This document shows, one piece after another, positions 13,306-62,166 of a stretch of DNA of 64,000 nucleotides. The number at the start of each line of letters is the position of its first letter. The first letter of the stretch is position 1. Location of the stretch: assembly GCF_030464345.1 (NCBI RefSeq), contig NZ_VCYH01000007.1:62001-126000 (forward strand). The letters are read 5' to 3'. This DNA comes from Methanoculleus frigidifontis (lineage in GTDB: Archaea; Halobacteriota; Methanomicrobia; Methanomicrobiales; Methanoculleaceae). The notes below the pieces were generated by a model that did not search any database, was not told where the DNA came from, and saw only the letters and a program-made list of their open reading frames with translations. A program made the position numbers and the translations under genes.

Positions 13306-13886
13306 GAAATCTTTCCCGCGATCTGCACGGGGCGGCGATCGCGGTACTGCTCCGGGAAACATCCGGTCATCCTCGTGCAGGTGATCGCATGGGTTGTGTG
13401 CGTCCCCCTCCACGAAGGTTCTCGTATCGGTCTGGGATCCGAAACTGTCGGAGCAGATCCTGTCACCGTCCAGAGACGCAGGCATGGTACACCGGAACCA
13501 GAAAAACCGGAGCAACGATCGCCATCGGTCGAGCCGCTACCCTGCATTGCTTCAGTTCTGCTGAATCCGCTCTCATCTCCGGAGACCTCCTCCTCCGCCG
13601 ATATGATGCGATTCTTCCGGCCGGCCGGCAGCATGGCTTTGTTCTGCTCCCTTCCCCAATAACGGCAACGGAAAAACCTCGTGGTGTTCCTCACGAGACC
13701 GTCTCCACAGTCCGTTCTCATCCCGGTGATACGTGCCGGCAACCCTCTTCGTGCATTGCGCTCTTCTAGAGCAGATCCCACAAGTATTCGTGGATGGGAC
13801 GATCGATCTGGATCGGCGCATTCCTCTCGGGTATATCAGGAAAAAGGAGGTGCATCAGAGGCAGAACCTGCAAGCACGGAGACCCC

Positions 13887-14200
13887 CGGGGGTATCGCGT
13901 GGGGGGGAGGATGCGGGAGGGGGCAAGCCCCATATACGCTACCGTACCCTATGGGTGCACCGAAATTCCTGTTGCTATCGGCGGGGTCCAGGCACGTGAT
14001 GAGATCCCATTTATTGCTCCGGATGGCCGCAATCCGGGGTATTCGGGGCACGGCTTTCCCCTGGGTATCGTCATGACTGCCCCCGCCCCGTGAGGGGCAG
14101 GGTTGATGAGGTCTGTGGATCTTCGCGGGAGACAGGGGGGGAGACCCCCACCCCGGGGGCGATAGTCGCCACGGTCCACGGCACGGGGAGACGCCCGGGA
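13887..14200 (+). repeat. Dispersed mosaic repeat, copy 1
   Basis: This stretch is clearly related, in inverted orientation, to 50289-50504. Shared blocks include TTCCTGTTGCTATCGGCGGG, CGCAATCCGGGGTATTCGGG, ATGACTGCCCC and CACGGTCCACGGCA. Copy 1 contains about 66 bp (near 14085-14148) that copy 2 lacks. This segment is highly structured: GCCCC-GTGA-GGGGC at 14085-14098 is a GNRA-type hairpin, and GGGGG-AGA-CCCCC follows near 14137-14149. One frame of the shared part would read IPVAIGGVQA..DE, so an old coding remnant cannot be excluded. Confidence 0.75.
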
Positions 14201-14301
14201 AAAAGGTCGTCCCCGGGCCAAGCCTCATCAGGGGAAAAACGCTTGGATCCCCTTACTTAAGGTTAGCGCTAATGGGGACAAGCCCCCTCCTGCCAGAGAG
14301 T

Positions 14302-14320
14302 ATTGGGATAATCTCCCAAT
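14302..14320. other. Inverted repeat/hairpin
   Basis: ATTGGGA-TAATC-TCCCAAT, a perfect 7-bp stem with a 5-nt loop in the non-coding region. It lies 80 nt beyond the end of the Agl23-like gene and may be a transcript 3' structure. Confidence 0.45.
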
Positions 14321-24542: not shown

Positions 24543-24716
24543 TTCCTACGGTACAGATCCGTGAACCGCTGCCCGTCGGTCTTCGCCGTCGGGCGATGCG
24601 GTGCCCGGGATCTGCCGCGTACCGCAAACGGCATCGATCGGCGCTGCGCCGCAATGCTGTCATCCCGGTACGGGTATCCTGCAGAAGGCTGCTCGTGAAC
24701 CTGAAGGTGCATACCA

Positions 24717-25913
24717 ATGGCAATTGATACAGGTGATACTGCATTTATCCTGATCTGCACGGCTCTCGTCATGCTGATGACTCCTGGCGTGGGGTTGTTC
24801 TACGGGGGTCTTGTACGGCGGAAGAATTTCATCTCGATGATAGCACTGGCGTTCATCGCTTTCTCGGTGGTTACGATCCAGTGGGTTGTCTTCGGCTACA
24901 GCCTGGCTTTCGGCTCCGATATAGGCGGGCTCATCGGAAGCCTTGAATACGTTGGCTTGAGCGGCGTCGGGATGGACGGCGAGGGCATCCCGGACCTGCT
25001 CTTCATGGTCTTCCAGCTCGTCTTTGCTGGCCTGACACTGGCAATCGTGACGTCCGGTGTGGCCGAGCGGGTGAAGATCAGTTCGTTCATCGTCTTCGGT
25101 CTCCTCTGGACGACGCTCGTGTACGACCCGCTCGCTCACTGGGCATGGGGCGGTGGCTGGGCAGCTCAGCTCGGCGCGCTTGATTTCGCCGGCGGAACGG
25201 TCGTTCATATCAGTTCCGGGTTCGGGGCGCTCGCGCTTGCCCTCGTCATCGGCAAAAGGGTTGGATTCGGCACCTACGGCATGGAGCCGCACAACATCCC
25301 GATGACGCTCCTCGGGGGCGCCCTCCTCTGGTTCGGGTGGTTCGGTTTCAACGCCGGAAGCGCTCTTGCCGCCGATGGCCTTGCTGCAAGTGCCTTCGTG
25401 GTGACCAACATTTCGGCCGCAGCCGGCGCGCTCGCATGGCTGTTCGCTGCCTGGGTCCGTGGCAAGCCGAGCTCCGTCGGGATGATCAGCGGCGCCATCG
25501 CCGGCCTTGTAGCTATCACGCCGGCAGCGGGCTTCGTCGATCCGATGAGCGCGATCGTCATCGGTGCCGTCGCCGGTGTTCTCTGCTACGCTGCCCTGCT
25601 CTTCCGGGTCGGCCGTGGCCTCGATGAGAGCCTCGATGCCTGGGCGGTCCACGGCGTCGGCGGTGTCTGGGGTGCGCTTGCGATGGGTGTCTTCGCAGTC
25701 GCTGCTATCGGCGGCGTCGACGGTCTGCTCTACGGCAACGTCGGGCAGTTCATCATCCAGGTCGTCGACGTGGTCGTGGTGGTCATCTACGCATTCGGTG
25801 TCACGTTCATCCTTGCAAAGATCGTCGATCTGACGATGGGTCTGCGGGTGAGCGAGGAAGAGGAATACGTCGGTCTCGATATCTCCCAGCATGGAGAGTC
25901 GACCCAGGTGTGA
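24717..25913 (+). CDS. amt: Ammonium transporter Amt (copy 1)
   Basis: A 398-residue channel protein with eleven membrane helices. Family motifs include [14 protein letters not shown] at the N-terminus, [12 protein letters not shown] with the first pore histidine and [18 protein letters not shown] with the second. The cytosolic tail ends [18 protein letters not shown], typical of Amt proteins that bind GlnK. glnK1 follows after 9 nt. A second amt-glnK pair of very similar sequence lies directly downstream. Confidence 0.96.
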
Positions 25914-26367: not shown

Positions 26368-26528
26368 TTCTAACAGAGCACCCGCCCGGTTCTCCTGCGT
26401 TTCGCGCAGGCCACACGCATCTATTCGCACGACCCTCCTCTGGAGCGGAGCCTCCGGTCATTGGGTAGGGAATGTGCGTATGTACACGAAGACCCGGCAG
26501 TGCCTGCTGCTCCTGGAGTGGTGCTACA

Positions 26529-27725
26529 ATGACAATTGATACAGGCGATACCGCATTTATCCTGATCTGCACGGCTCTCGTCATGCTGATGACCCCTGGC
26601 GTGGGGCTCTTCTACGGGGGTCTTGTACGGCGAAAGAATCTGATATCGATGTTTGCCCTCTCGTTCGTCGCCTTCTCGGTGGTCACGATCCAGTGGGTTC
26701 TCTTCGGCTACAGCCTGGCTTTCGGCTCCGATGTAGGCGGGGTCATCGGGAGCCTCGAGTACGTGGGCTTGAGCGGCGTCGGCATGGACGGTGACGGCAT
26801 CCCGGACCTGCTCTTCATGGTCTTCCAGCTCGTCTTTGCCGCCGTAACGCTCGCGATCATCACATCGGCGGTTGCCGAACGGGTGAAGATCAGCTCGTTC
26901 ATCGTCTTCGGCCTCCTCTGGACGACGCTGGTGTACGACCCGCTCGCTCACTGGGTCTGGGGCGGTGGCTGGATGGCAGAGCTCGGCATCCTTGACTTTG
27001 CGGGAGGCATTGTCGTGCATATCTCCGCCGGGTTCGGGGCGCTCGCGCTTGCCCTTGTCATCGGCAAGAGAGTCGGGTTCGGGGAGTACAGCATGGAGCC
27101 GCATAACATCCCGATGACGCTTCTCGGGGGCGCCCTCCTCTGGTTCGGGTGGTTCGGGTTCAACGCCGGAAGCGCTCTTGCCGCCGACGGCCTTGCCGCG
27201 AACGCCTTCGTGGTGACCAACATCTCGGCTGCGTCCGGTGCCCTGGCATGGATGGCTGCTTCCTGGATCCGCGGCAAGCCGAGCTCCGTCGGGATGATCA
27301 GCGGCGCTATCGCCGGGCTCGGTGCGATCACCCCGGCCGCGGGTTTTGTCGGCCCGCTGCAGGCCATTATCATCGGCGTTGTCTCCGGTCTCCTCTGTTA
27401 CTATGCCCTGCTCTTCCGGATCCGGCAAAGGTGGGATGAGAGCCTTGATGCCTGGGCAATCCACGGCGTCGGCGGTGTCTGGGGGACGCTCGCGATAGGC
27501 ATCTTTGCGATCGCCGCCGTCGGCGGGGTCAGTGGGCTGGTCGAGGGGAGCTTCAATCAGCTGCTGCTGCAGGCTGTCGGTGCCGGCGCGACCGTGCTCT
27601 ATGCGTTCGTCGTTACGTTCGTCCTTGCAAAGGTCGTCGATCTGACGATGGGCCTCCGGGTAAGCGAAGAGGAGGAGTACGTCGGTCTCGATATCTCCCA
27701 GCATGGAGAGTCGACCCAGGTGTGA
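26529..27725 (+). CDS. amt: Ammonium transporter Amt (copy 2)
   Basis: A 398-residue Amt channel, clearly a tandem paralogue of the one at 24717. All family motifs are present ([44 protein letters not shown]), as is the same GlnK-binding tail. ATG 26529 has GGAGTGGTG upstream; the extension to 26472 is not supported. The end of the gene is identical to amt1 at DNA level into the glnK gene, pointing to recent gene conversion. Confidence 0.96.
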
Positions 27726-36320: not shown

Positions 36321-37622
36321 CTACATCGACCTCCTGTCGATGACCTTCTTGGACTTCCCCTCGAACCGGGGAAGCGTTCCCGGCTCCACCAGCTCCACGC
36401 CCACGGCGACGTTGAGCGTGCTGCGCAGCCTGTTCTCCACCTTCTTTTTTAAGACCATCAGGTCGGTGATCTTGTCGGAGAAGGCCTCCTCGCTGATCTC
36501 CACCCGCACGAGCATGGTGTCAAGCGCCCCCTGCCGGTCGACCACGATCTGGAAGTGTCTGCCGATCCCGGGGATCTCCAGGAGCGCGTGCTCCACCTGC
36601 GACGGGAAGACGTTGATGCCGCGGATGATCAGCATGTCGTCCACCCTGCCGGAGATCCGCCGGATGCGCGGGTGCGTCCGGCCGCAGGCGCAGGGTTCGT
36701 CCTCGAGCACCGTGATGTCGCCGATCCGGTAGCGCACCATCGGAAGCGCCTCTTTCTGGAGCATGGTGATGACGAGTTCCCCCTGCTCCCCGGGTGCGAG
36801 CACCTCACCCGTCCCGGAGTCGATGACCTCGACGAGGGCGAGGTCGCCCCAGATATGGATCCCCTGCTGCTCGGTGCACTCCGAAAACATCGGCCCGGAG
36901 AGCTCGCTCGTGCCGTAGATGTCGTAGGCCTTGATGCCGAGCCAGTCCTCGATCCGCTCGCGCATCTGCTCGGACCAGGGTTCGGCGCCGAGGATCCCGG
37001 CGGAGAGATCGGTGTCGTCTCTGATGGAGATGCCCATCTTTTCTGCGACCTCGCCCATGTGGAGGAGGTACGAGGGGGTGCAGGCGATCGCCGTGACGTG
37101 CAGGTCCTGCATCAGCTCGATCTGCCGCTCGGTGTTCCCGACGCTCGTCGGCAGAACGGTCGCGCCGATCCGCTCCGCACCGTAGTGCGCCCCGAGCCCG
37201 CCGGTGAAGAGGCCGTAACCGTAACTGACCTGGATCACGTCGCCCCGGCCGAGCCCGCAGGAGGTGAACGCCCGGGCGAGCGACTCGGACCAGTTCTCGA
37301 TGTCGTGCCGGGTGTAGCCGACGACGGTCGGCTTTCCGGTCGTTCCCGACGAGACGTGGTAGCGGACGAGTTCGTCCCGGGAGGCCGAGAAGATCCGGTC
37401 CGGGTAGTTGTCGCGAAGATCCCCCTTGTACATGAAGGGGAGTTTCGCCGCGTCCGCGAGCGATCTGATATCGTCGGGGTGGACGCCCTGCTCCTTCATC
37501 CGGGCGCGGTAGAACTCGCTGAAACTGTAGAGCCGGTAGACCTGCGTCTTGAGCAGCCGAAACTGCAGCCGCTGCAGCTCGTCCCGGGGTATCTCCTCCA
37601 TCCGGGGGTTCCAGGGCGGCAT
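36321..37622 (-). CDS. Phenylacetate-CoA ligase-like enzyme (PaaK family), copy A
   Basis: A 433-residue acyl-adenylate enzyme. AMP-binding motif YHVSSGTTGKPTVVGYT (about 90-106), YGTSELSGP and RYRIGDITVLEDEPCACGRTHPRIRRISGRVDDMLIIRGINVFPSQVE are family hallmarks. In methanogens such ligases activate aryl acids such as phenylacetate and indoleacetate for aromatic amino acid synthesis together with indolepyruvate oxidoreductase. It overlaps copy B by 1 nt. Confidence 0.93.
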   Translation of the reverse strand: MPPWNPRMEEIPRDELQRLQFRLLKTQVYRLYSFSEFYRARMKEQGVHPDDIRSLADAAKLPFMYKGDLRDNYPDRIFSASRDELVRYHVSSGTTGKPTVVGYTRHDIENWSESLARAFTSCGLGRGDVIQVSYGYGLFTGGLGAHYGAERIGATVLPTSVGNTERQIELMQDLHVTAIACTPSYLLHMGEVAEKMGISIRDDTDLSAGILGAEPWSEQMRERIEDWLGIKAYDIYGTSELSGPMFSECTEQQGIHIWGDLALVEVIDSGTGEVLAPGEQGELVITMLQKEALPMVRYRIGDITVLEDEPCACGRTHPRIRRISGRVDDMLIIRGINVFPSQVEHALLEIPGIGRHFQIVVDRQGALDTMLVRVEISEEAFSDKITDLMVLKKKVENRLRSTLNVAVGVELVEPGTLPRFEGKSKKVIDRRSM

Positions 37623-38911
37623 CAGAGCGCCCCCCGCCGGTCGACGATCCGACGCGCCTTCCCCTCAAACCGGGGGAGCGAGCCCGGCTCGACCAGTTTC
37701 ACCGTGGTGCGCAGGCCGAGCGCGTTGTGGAGCGCTCCGGCCACATGCTTCTGAATCCGTGCAAGGTCCTGCAGTTCGCCCGAGAAGCCCGCCCTGCTCA
37801 TCTCCACTTCGATCGTCATCTCATCTAGATGTTTGACGCGATCGATATAAACCATGAACTGTTCCCCGACCTCGGGAAGCCCCAGCAGCACATGCTCGAT
37901 CTGAGAGGGGAAGACGTTGATGCCCCGGATGACGAGCATATCGTCGCTCCGGCCGGTGATCCGTGCAATCTTTCTCCCCCTGCCGCACGGGCAGTCCTCC
38001 TCCATCAGCATGGTGATGTCGCCCGTCCGGTAGCGCAGGAGCGGCATCGCCTCTTTCACAAGCGGGGTTATGACGAGTTCTCCCCGCTCGCCGGGTCCGA
38101 GCACCTCGCCCGTCGCCGGGTCGATGATCTCGACGAGATAACTGTCGTGCCAGATGTGCAGTCCGTCGCGCTCAGGGCACTCGAAGGCCACGCCGGGGCC
38201 GTACATCTCGGAGAGCCCGTAGGAGTCGAAGGCGGTGACGCCGAGGCGCCCCTCGAGTTCGCTGCGCATGCTCTCGGACCAGGGCTCGGCGCCGAAGATC
38301 CCGGTCTTGAGCGTTGCAAGCTCCGCGCCGGTCGACTCCGCAACCTCGGCGAGGTGCATGGCGTAGCTCGGGGTGCAGTGAATGGCGGTGACCCCGAAGT
38401 CCTCGATCATCTCGATCTGCCGCTGTGTGTTGCCGGTCGCGCTCGGGACGACGGTCATCCCGACCTTCTCGGCACCGTAGTGGAACCCGAGCCCGCCGGT
38501 AAAGAGCCCGTAGTTGACGGCGTTCTGGAAGACATCCTCATCAGAGAGGCCGACCATCACCAGGTTCCGTGCAATGAGCTCCGACCAGCTCTCGAGATCT
38601 CCCCGGGTATACCCGACGACGGTCGGTTTCCCGGTCGTGCCGGAGGTCGTGTGAATGCGGACGATCTGCCGGAGCGGCACGGCGAGGAGCCCGAACGGGT
38701 AGCCGGCCTGCAGTTCTTTCTTTGTGGTGAACGGAAGTTTCGCCGCGTCCTCAAGGGTTTTGATGTCTCCGGGGGCGACGCCCGCTTCCTTCAGTTTGCT
38801 GCGGTAGAGCGCAACGTTTTGTGTCTGATGGAGCGTCCACTTCAGCCGTTTGATCTGCAGCGCCTCAAGGTCCGCGGCGCTGATCGTCTCCATCGCGGTA
38901 TTCCAGAACAT
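37622..38911 (-). CDS. Phenylacetate-CoA ligase-like enzyme (PaaK family), copy B
   Basis: A 429-residue paralogue of copy A. It has IHTTSGTTGKPTVVGYT, YGLSEMYGP and RYRTGDITMLMEEDCPCGRGRKIARITGRSDDMLVIRGINVFPSQIE. The frame runs 41 residues further upstream, but ATG 38911 (MFWNTAMETISAADLEALQ) matches where copy A begins. First gene of the PaaK-PaaK-ACT operon. The two copies probably differ in acid substrate. Confidence 0.92.
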   Translation of the reverse strand: MFWNTAMETISAADLEALQIKRLKWTLHQTQNVALYRSKLKEAGVAPGDIKTLEDAAKLPFTTKKELQAGYPFGLLAVPLRQIVRIHTTSGTTGKPTVVGYTRGDLESWSELIARNLVMVGLSDEDVFQNAVNYGLFTGGLGFHYGAEKVGMTVVPSATGNTQRQIEMIEDFGVTAIHCTPSYAMHLAEVAESTGAELATLKTGIFGAEPWSESMRSELEGRLGVTAFDSYGLSEMYGPGVAFECPERDGLHIWHDSYLVEIIDPATGEVLGPGERGELVITPLVKEAMPLLRYRTGDITMLMEEDCPCGRGRKIARITGRSDDMLVIRGINVFPSQIEHVLLGLPEVGEQFMVYIDRVKHLDEMTIEVEMSRAGFSGELQDLARIQKHVAGALHNALGLRTTVKLVEPGSLPRFEGKARRIVDRRGAL

Positions 38912-49125: not shown

Positions 49126-50043
49126 ATGGAAAACGGCTTTTTCGAGGAATGGCTCAATCGCTTCGCATACTACCTCCGGATGCGGAATTACTCGCCGAAA
49201 ACGGTCGAAAGCTACGACCAGACGGTCCGGCAGTTCGCCCGCTACGTCTGGCTCCGCCGGTCCGCCGACGGCGATGCCGTGTCATACGACGAGGATGATT
49301 TTGCGCACGCACGGCTCGATGCATCCGTCGCAGTCACGCCGGCACTGGTCACGGACTTCCTCTCCTACCTCGCCGGGCAGGGGTATCAGCCGCGGACGCT
49401 CCACCGCGTGATCTCGACGCTCTCGTCGTTTTACTCCTATCTCTACGCGCAGGGCGCCGTTCCGGCAAACCCGATGCTCGGCACGGAGCGGCCCCGCATC
49501 AAGAATCAGGAGCTCAAATACCTGAAGCACAGCCAGGTGCTCCGGCTCATCAACACCATCGAGGATGCCGAGGACCGTCTCATCGTGCGGCTGATCTACG
49601 CCACCGGCGTCCGTGTCTCCGAGCTCTGCACTATCGACGTCGAGGATATCGATTTCGAGGAGCACACCATCCGCGTCAAAGGCAAGGGCGACAAGATCCG
49701 GGTTGTCTTCATCGACGAGGAGACGCTCGCCGAGGTCGAGCAGTACATCGGCAATACGATCGTCGGCCCACTCTTCGTCGGCCAGCAGGGCAAACACATC
49801 TCGCCCCGCACGGTGCAGCGGATCTTCAAAAAATACGCGCCCGACGGGATCACGCCGCACAAACTCCGCCACTCCTACGCGAGCGAACTCTACCGCCGCT
49901 CCAAGAACCTCCGCGTCGTGCAGGAGAATCTCGGGCACACCTCGATCAAAACGACCGAGATCTACCTCCATACGGACATCGACGAGCGTAAACGCGTGTA
50001 TCGGGAGTTCTTCCCCCTCTCGAAGAACGATCGCACTGAGTGA
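49126..50043 (+). CDS. xerA: Tyrosine site-specific recombinase, Xer type
   Basis: A 305-residue recombinase. The N-terminal SAM-like core-binding domain (FFEEWLNRFAYYLRMRNYSPKTVESY) is followed by the catalytic domain with R163 (TGVRVSEL), K186/K188 (KGKGDK), H245 and R248 (HKLRHSYASEL), H271 (LGHTSIKTTEIY) and the nucleophile Y280. The compact length and lack of an insertion fit XerA, which resolves chromosome dimers, more than a phage integrase. A TATA element at 49093-49100 puts the transcript start within a few bases of the ATG, so the message is near-leaderless. It lies alone among repeats and non-coding DNA. Confidence 0.92.
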   Translation: MENGFFEEWLNRFAYYLRMRNYSPKTVESYDQTVRQFARYVWLRRSADGDAVSYDEDDFAHARLDASVAVTPALVTDFLSYLAGQGYQPRTLHRVISTLSSFYSYLYAQGAVPANPMLGTERPRIKNQELKYLKHSQVLRLINTIEDAEDRLIVRLIYATGVRVSELCTIDVEDIDFEEHTIRVKGKGDKIRVVFIDEETLAEVEQYIGNTIVGPLFVGQQGKHISPRTVQRIFKKYAPDGITPHKLRHSYASELYRRSKNLRVVQENLGHTSIKTTEIYLHTDIDERKRVYREFFPLSKNDRTE

Positions 50044-50182: not shown

Positions 50183-50288
50183 GCTCTCCGCTATGAGCTG
50201 TGAGCGCCCGTCAGGCAGGGAGGGCGTTTCTCACGAGCGCTACCCTTCGATACGGGGATTTGCGCGTCTCCCGCGTTCTTCCCCTGAC

Positions 50289-50531
50289 CGCGCTTGTCCC
50301 GGCGTCTCCCCATGCCGTGGACCGTGGTGGCTAAGCGCCCCCGGGGTGGGGGCAGTCATGGCGACACCCGGGGGAACGCCGTGCCCCCCGAATACCCCGG
50401 ATTGCGGTTATCCGGAGCAAGAGATGGAACCTCATCAAGTGCTTGGACCCCGCCGATAGCAACAGGAATGCAGTACACCCACAGGATACGGTAGCGTATA
50501 TGGGCACGTCTCCTCCCCGCCCTGCGAAGAT
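50289..50531 (-). repeat. Dispersed mosaic repeat, copy 2
   Basis: Read on the minus strand this is the counterpart of 13928-14200, with long shared blocks such as TTCCTGTTGCTATCGGCGGG, CATATACGCTACCGTA and CACGGTCCACGGCA. It lacks the ~66-bp structured segment of copy 1. A module GCGGGAATCTTCGCAGGG at its outer end also recurs in copy 1 and at 59655, in a different order, so the family is a mosaic. Confidence 0.75.
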
Positions 50532-59488: not shown

Positions 59489-59799
59489 ACCGGTATCTTC
59501 GACTCTGTTTTCTCTTTTACGGATGCGGCTCCGAAAAACGCTGCGGCATGATTGAGAGATCTTCGTCCGCTACCATCCTCACCCATCGCCGATGCATTGT
59601 GTCCGCGGGAGCAGCGTGGGGAGGGGATTTGGGCTCCCTCCCCCTGTCCCCACCCCCGCGAAGATACTTCCCACGGTCCGCTTGCCACAGCTGGCGCAAT
59701 GAACGCGGGTAGAGTTGTGGGGCTAGAATAGCATCGTGAAGGTCCGGCAGAAGGAGCGATACGGCCTTTCTCTGCGGCAGAAGGCGGCCCTGCCCCTTT
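59489..59799. other. Intergenic region holding a fragment of the mosaic repeat
   Basis: 311 bp between convergent genes. T-rich CTCTGTTTTCTCTTTT near 59503-59518 may terminate the TPR transcript. At 59629-59680, read on the minus strand, ATCTTCGCGGG and ACAGGGGGAGGG recur as in the structured part of repeat copy 1. No gene is supported. Confidence 0.5.
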
Positions 59800-61860: not shown

Positions 61861-62166
61861 TCCTCTTCATCGTTGCATGATCACTGCGTTCTTATGCTAG
61901 ATACCTATTGTGCATGCGGTCCGGAAGTATTCCGGAGCGGGGCGGGTTTTTCGGGTGGTGGCAGGAGGAACCGGCGCCTTCCCCGCTGTGTCCCTCCGGG
62001 ATGGCTGTGCTCGCCTCCTCCCGCGCCCTCCCCCCACGCGAAACCCCCAGAAATACCGAGCTTTCAGGCTCTGCCTCGGATGAACTTTTTTGCCGATCCC
62101 CCGAAAGGCGTGTGTCGATCCGGATCGATCGTTTCATCCCCGAATCCTCTGTGGATGTGCTCGATC
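61861..62166. other. Intergenic region with a mosaic-repeat fragment
   Basis: 306 bp upstream of ruvC. At 62013-62049 the minus strand reads GGGTTTCGCGTGGGGGGAGG and continues GCGCGGGAGG, closely matching the left end of repeat copy 1 (13887-13923). No gene is supported. Confidence 0.5.

Follow-up and report, generated by a model that had tools for sequence, protein, structure and literature searches.

A MITE-like element that prefers hairpin centres and shares a palindromic core with other MITEs in Methanoculleus frigidifontis

Introduction

Two segments lying 36 kb apart in inverted orientation in the genome of Methanoculleus frigidifontis share blocks of near-identical sequence. The locus raises the question of whether these segments are a single chance duplication, a pair of repeats able to flip the DNA between them, or members of a family of structured elements. 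The segments lie in a 64,000-nucleotide stretch of the genome, referred to here as the window, in which positions are counted from the first letter. Methanoculleaceae are important in biogas production, and miniature elements of the MITE type are commonly held to be insertion sequences with internal deletions. We assign the window pair to a MITE-like element, T1, which is found together with other MITEs, designated E2, T2 and T3.

Results and Discussion

The inverted pair

The original prediction, that 13928-14200 matches 50289-50504 on the opposite strand with identical blocks of 20 bases or more, is borne out by BLASTN. Positions 13929-14090 align with 50504-50342 at 87% identity over 164 bp (E = 1e-51) and 14145-14203 with 50352-50294 at 88% over 60 bp (E = 1e-13), with identical runs of more than 20 bases such as ATTCCTGTTGCTATCGGCGGGGTCCA. 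This pair, with three arms at 80-90%, is the only inverted repeat of 40 nt or more in the whole window. Both copies lie outside recognisable genes, as had been proposed, and the ORFs overlapping them have no Pfam match. The homology begins at 13928 and not at 13887, where the segment had been taken to start; 13887-13923 belongs to a different repeat, E2.

13928-14277, + strand: T1 copy 1, 350 bp, centred in the G-rich E2 hairpin; placed by its ends and by alignment to approximately 30 other copies
50229-50505, - strand: T1 copy 2, 277 bp, its central hairpins apparently deleted
14097-14162, + strand: segment of copy 1 that is missing from copy 2, an apparent remnant of the central hairpins

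The two copies differ in length by approximately 64-66 bp, as predicted, but what had been read as extra sequence in copy 1 appears to be what is left of a longer segment and not an insertion. A central segment of approximately 100 bp is whole in other copies such as L005, L009 and L016, partly kept in copy 1 and missing altogether from copy 2, and we infer that the length difference arose by deletion inside hairpins. The predicted GGGGG-AGA-CCCCC stem is present in copy 1 as the shortened central hairpin of this segment; no specific evidence was found for the GNRA-type hairpin predicted alongside it.

A dispersed T1 family

When 13880-14260 was searched against the genome that holds the window (G000; 3.165 Mb in 30 contigs), 58 dispersed matches were returned, and module mapping on the stretches around them placed the T1 left end at approximately 31 loci. 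The window pair, 13928-14277 (+) and 50505-50229 (-), is thus a sample of a dispersed family with many further copies. Nor are copies 1 and 2 a special pair within the family, since they are 84% identical to each other, closer relatives lie elsewhere (copy 1 is 92% identical to L002 and copy 2 89% to L015) and some 31 copies are present.

The anatomy of T1 is well supported. It is a non-coding, transposase-less, MITE-like element of approximately 350 bp, dispersed and mostly placed between ORFs, with ends CCCCATATACGCTAC and CCCCATTAGCGCTAA. In copy 1 the left boundary is CCCCATATACGCTAC and the right boundary its imperfect inverse; most copies carry the terminal inverted repeats CCCCAT..CGCTA at both ends, and the boundaries are sharp. 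Identity among copies is 80-95% (mean 87%), and the family may therefore be an old, inactive one. No preferred gene context was found among 25 copies, of which 15 lie between tandem genes, six between convergent and three between divergent genes, with one undetermined; a role as a transcription terminator between convergent genes was rejected on these counts.

None of the 17 DDE_Tnp_1 (PF01609) matches in the 30 contigs of the genome is a transposase with T1 ends. A search for the T1 left end in 232 genomes of the order, with the best candidates of each scored, did not detect it outside the genome of the window, beyond a 23-bp match in one (G043). The exact core pattern had no match in viral contigs, and a single attempt to find an orthologous empty site in another species matched a paralogue (protein query, 28% identity).

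The most apt description of T1 is that of a MITE-like element with a preference for the centres of hairpins, nested with other MITEs and with a palindromic core in common with them. MITEs are an already known kind of element, of which the T1 system is a variant; no description of these repeats was found in the open-access papers searched, which leave out most subscription journals.

E2, the host of copy 1

13769-14315, + strand: E2, a probable MITE of an IS5-family element, approximately 185 bp, split by T1 into halves 13769-13923 and approximately 14283-14315; flanks CTA and CCA
62009-62162, - strand: truncated E2 copy

In five E2 copies that carry no T1 (L056, L057, L058, L059 and L061) the halves are joined directly through a short hairpin, GGGAGGGGG-loop-CCCCCTCC, and this uninterrupted hairpin is the related empty site for T1. 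E2 has the ends GAGnnnATCCCA and TGGGATnnnCTC, and four copies are flanked by exact 3-bp target duplications (ATC in L056, GGG in L059, ACC in L058 and AAC in L061); the trinucleotides flanking the window E2, CTA and CCA, differ from each other. An 844-bp insertion sequence with the ends of E2 (GAGnnnATCCYAA) is present at L160:1476-2319 and L161:1135-1978, with exact 3-bp duplications, CTT and CAG. Its frames match DUF4096 and DDE_Tnp_1 above cut-off and also match the IS5-family model NF033580, where each fragment scores below the whole-protein cut-off. By its ends and 3-bp duplications E2 is thus a MITE, and the 844-bp element is its probable IS5-family partner in the same genome. The reverse nesting also occurs, with E2 lying inside T1 copies at C1:123644, C8:16213 and C9:94436.

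Insertion at hairpins and palindromes

13919-13931, + strand: hairpin GGGGG-CAAG-CCCC on the left of T1, probably one copy of the duplicated target; its last 4 bp can also be read as the T1 end
14274-14286, + strand: hairpin GGGG-ACAAG-CCCC on the right of T1, probably the other copy of that target, identical at 12 of 13 positions
59560-59710, - strand: GC-rich palindrome without T1, of the unoccupied target type; extent approximate

Five T1 copies are positioned at the centre of the E2 hairpin (the window copy, L003, L004, L007 and L041). Apart from L003 and L007, which are mutual best matches, these copies have their closest T1 relatives at sites other than E2, and T1 probably inserted into E2 on at least four separate occasions. 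By chance 0.024 such nestings would be expected, giving a Poisson P of 6e-11 for five or more, a rough figure from a test chosen after the data had been seen. Most other T1 copies have arms of the GGGGAGGGGG type on the left flank and the inverse on the right; in all, most copies occupy the centres of GC-rich palindromes. A search of the genome with the joined flanks of L010 found like palindromes without T1 in L198, L199, L200, L204, L209, L212 and others, the window palindrome at approximately 59560-59710 among them. Five copies (L002, L008, L027, L028 and L030) have GGGG-N-CCCC-like junctions outside long palindromes.

In the 25 T1 copies that have both ends, the junction string on the left resembles the one on the right more than shuffled pairings would (sum 180 against 145 +/- 8, P = 1.5e-4), the matches having been spotted by eye before the test was devised. 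Clear loop matches of 8-12 bases are found in approximately nine of the 25, and the remaining copies mismatch. A duplication of the 11-13 bp hairpin on T1 insertion is probable; the mismatched loops would then need recombination or a change in the loop. Enrichment of G-quadruplexes was considered as an explanation and rejected: G3+ motifs in the window show no general excess, with five found against 7.8 expected from mononucleotide shuffles, although E2 and the free palindrome account for two of them.

This target resembles those of two known systems. IS231A, of the IS4 family, has the target GGG(N5)CCC with a 10-12 bp duplication, and IS1397 is an insertion sequence that targets REP palindromes. 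The T1 junctions, GGGG-N(3-5)-CCCC with a probable duplication of 11-13 bp, are like the former in target shape, the one feature compared; unlike the IS231A case, no IS4-type partner with T1 ends was found among the 17 DDE_Tnp_1 matches in the genome. Like insertion sequences directed to REP palindromes (Tobes and Pareja 2006, PMC1525189), T1 favours extragenic palindromes as insertion sites. It differs from them in being archaeal and without a transposase, in targeting GC-rich palindromes of approximately 110 bp as well as MITE hairpins, and in a genomic setting without a Y1 transposase.

A core shared between unrelated ends

14014-14232, + strand: core common to the T3 MITEs of Methanoculleus; from approximately 14041 also common to the T2 MITEs

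The interior of T1 is a conserved multi-hairpin module of approximately 220 bp. In Methanoculleus genomes this core is found inside T3, a MITE type of 301-348 bp with ends GGCTYTGTTGAAMCCC. A 998-bp element in G000 (L162:1444-2441) has T3 ends and an open 343-aa DDE_Tnp_1 frame, and T3 is probably a MITE of an IS5-family element. T2, with ends GGTAGTGCCCTACGAAAC and GGTAGTGCTCCAGC, has roughly two dozen copies in G000 and carries the core from approximately 14041; no T2 end pair was spaced beyond approximately 700 bp, as an autonomous T2 partner would be. What is unusual about the system is that three unrelated sets of ends enclose a single interior. E2 and probably T3 are like known MITEs of IS5-family elements in being short and non-coding, with the ends of a complete insertion sequence in the same genome, and E2 and its insertion sequence share 3-bp duplications with them; the system departs from such MITEs in that no shortened transposase gene makes up the interior. 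Instead, a single palindromic core is held between the unrelated ends of T1, T2 and T3. The suggestion of a family of structured elements is therefore supported: there are some 31 copies of T1 and roughly two dozen of T2, together with free palindromes, and the hairpin-rich core is held in common with Methanoculleus.

In Methanoculleus the core also occurs outside T-type ends, in tandem (L140 and L142). In a Methanomicrobiales MAG, an arm of the core builds a 51-bp tandem array (L126:1129-1303; 3.4 units, 95% matches), which resembles the 51-bp satellite family Fam_102_51_3 of Methanoculleus marisnigri (PMC6749651) in unit length and taxonomic group, the two points of agreement. Some core units (L112:215-576, L140:7132-7390, L097, L100 and L156) are larger because they contain additional hairpins, whose arms vary and include GAGCACCGAAGGTGC and AACGACTGC..GCAGGAGTT; in L112 these hairpins flank the palindrome on either side. 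Elements of 136 bp with T2-like ends occur twice in G000, at C10:18376-18511 and C17:3911-4046, and are possibly a smaller MITE subtype.

Could the core itself be what is under selection? Aligned core units from different species keep a fixed set of helices and near-invariant stretches, unpaired ones included, a conservation that would fit structure in DNA as well as in RNA. The fold is more stable than that of shuffled sequences (RNA z -3.5 on one strand and -2.7 on the other). Covariation is weak: in an alignment not independent of relatedness, few of the 44 pairs vary on both sides, and the two-sided change is largely that of one hairpin, GGCC in some units and GCGC in others. The core has no Rfam family at gathering score, the best being CRISPR-DR37, far below gathering (E = 0.28).

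An extended reading, which we regard as unlikely, would make the core a functional cargo (an RNA or cruciform DNA) maintained by selection, captured independently between their ends by three or more unrelated IS families and providing hairpins that also serve as landing sites for further MITEs, to give a self-nesting system. A reading of the core as a gene for a functional structured RNA, or as regulatory DNA, to which the MITE ends are incidental is rather improbable. The stable fold, the near-invariant stretches, the hairpin that switches on both sides and the occurrence of the core in MITEs with unrelated ends would all fit such a gene, but the scarcity of two-sided variation, the lack of an Rfam family and of any preferred gene context among the 25 copies, and the many copies with internal deletions in the core all count against it; mobility alone also makes palindromes that fold well.

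Distribution of the palindromes

The exact palindrome GGGGAGGGG-N2-8-CCCCTCCCC occurs 24 times in G000 and is absent from the congener G001; Methanoculleus-group genomes have at most 51, with 60 in G003, and a reversed control pattern gave no matches in almost all genomes. REP/RAYT systems, known from enterobacteria and pseudomonads, offer a parallel in that extragenic palindromes reach high copy number and have other elements inserted in them. A spread of REP-like palindromes by a Y1 (RAYT) transposase is nevertheless very improbable here. A Y1 transposase (PF01797) is absent from G000. Of the 20 genomes scanned in the Methanoculleus group (g5), 17 lack it as well, among them most of those rich in palindromes, and G005 and G006 have several Y1 matches but only 0-1 exact palindromes; G003 is the sole genome of the 20 with both.

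G001, the one congener available, has no T1, no T2 end pairs and no exact GC-rich palindromes, where other family members have dozens. G043, from another family of the order and the source of the 23-bp match to the T1 left end, has 11 exact GGGGAGGGG-N-CCCCTCCCC palindromes and five matches to the reversed control.

Mosaic copies and the question of inversion

Several elements have mixed ends: T2-left/T1-left/T2-right at C1:395605 and C3:272562, T1-left/T2-right at C9:85076 and T1-left/T2-left/T1-right at C3:68915, while L042 is a T2 with an inner T1 right end. These copies could have formed by T1 entering T2 at its central hairpin (or T2 entering a hairpin of T1), with later deletion between the repeated cores, and their ends suggest recombination through the core. 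Hybrid ends and mismatched junction loops indicate that recombination has probably also taken place between other T1 copies.

Overall, the window pair is very probably explained by T1 being a non-autonomous MITE that is moved in trans, targets hairpins, shares its core and forms mosaics. On this explanation a DDE-type transposase would move T1 in trans into GGGG-N(3-5)-CCCC hairpins, usually at the centre of a long GC-rich palindrome, and insertion would probably duplicate the hairpin of 11-13 bp. Copy 1 would have entered the hairpin of an older MITE, E2, with ends as in an IS5-family element of G000, and the T1 interior would be a multi-hairpin core that is also held between unrelated MITE ends. 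Mosaics would then arise in three ways: by insertion into another element's hairpin, by internal deletion within hairpins and by homologous recombination through the shared core. The term mosaic in the original prediction was thus apt, its likely reasons being the nesting of one element in another, deletions within elements and recombination by way of segments in common.

It had also been suggested that the pair could drive an inversion. A flip of the intervening 36 kb by homologous recombination between the duplicates would suit their inverted orientation and near-identical blocks, and other T1 copies do look recombined. Both E2 halves, however, are still at copy 1, in register, with the junction loops CAAG and ACAAG of a near-identical hairpin duplication on either side. 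As a crossover with copy 2 would have left these halves 36 kb apart, no fixed inversion through copy 1 is indicated; moreover, copies 1 and 2 are not mutual nearest relatives. We consider this explanation highly unlikely.

At 49126-50043 (+) the window has a gene that matches archaeal XerA (NF040815; 306 bits, cut-off 220), with T1 copy 2 lying 186 bp downstream. XerA is an archaeal family of chromosome dimer-resolution recombinases. That the repeats are integron-like or tyrosine-recombinase sites (attC-like hairpins), as their hairpins and the 186-bp spacing of copy 2 from a tyrosine recombinase gene might hint, is scarcely credible, because that recombinase matches XerA and none of the other T1 copies examined has a relative of it as a neighbour.

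The preferred explanation, a MITE moved in trans, gives the system a wider interest. Three unrelated sets of ends surround one conserved palindromic interior, and one of these MITEs homes to the centres of palindromes, those of other MITEs included. If confirmed, the several independent nested insertions into one hairpin would be a naturally replicated case of hairpin-targeted transposition; the system would also give a handle on how MITEs acquire their interiors and account for much of the intergenic repeat load of Methanoculleaceae.

Other repeats in the window

The window also contains a 300-bp direct repeat inside ORFs (24715-25014 and 26527-26826, 91% identical), and further diverged duplications are found at 36552-38664.
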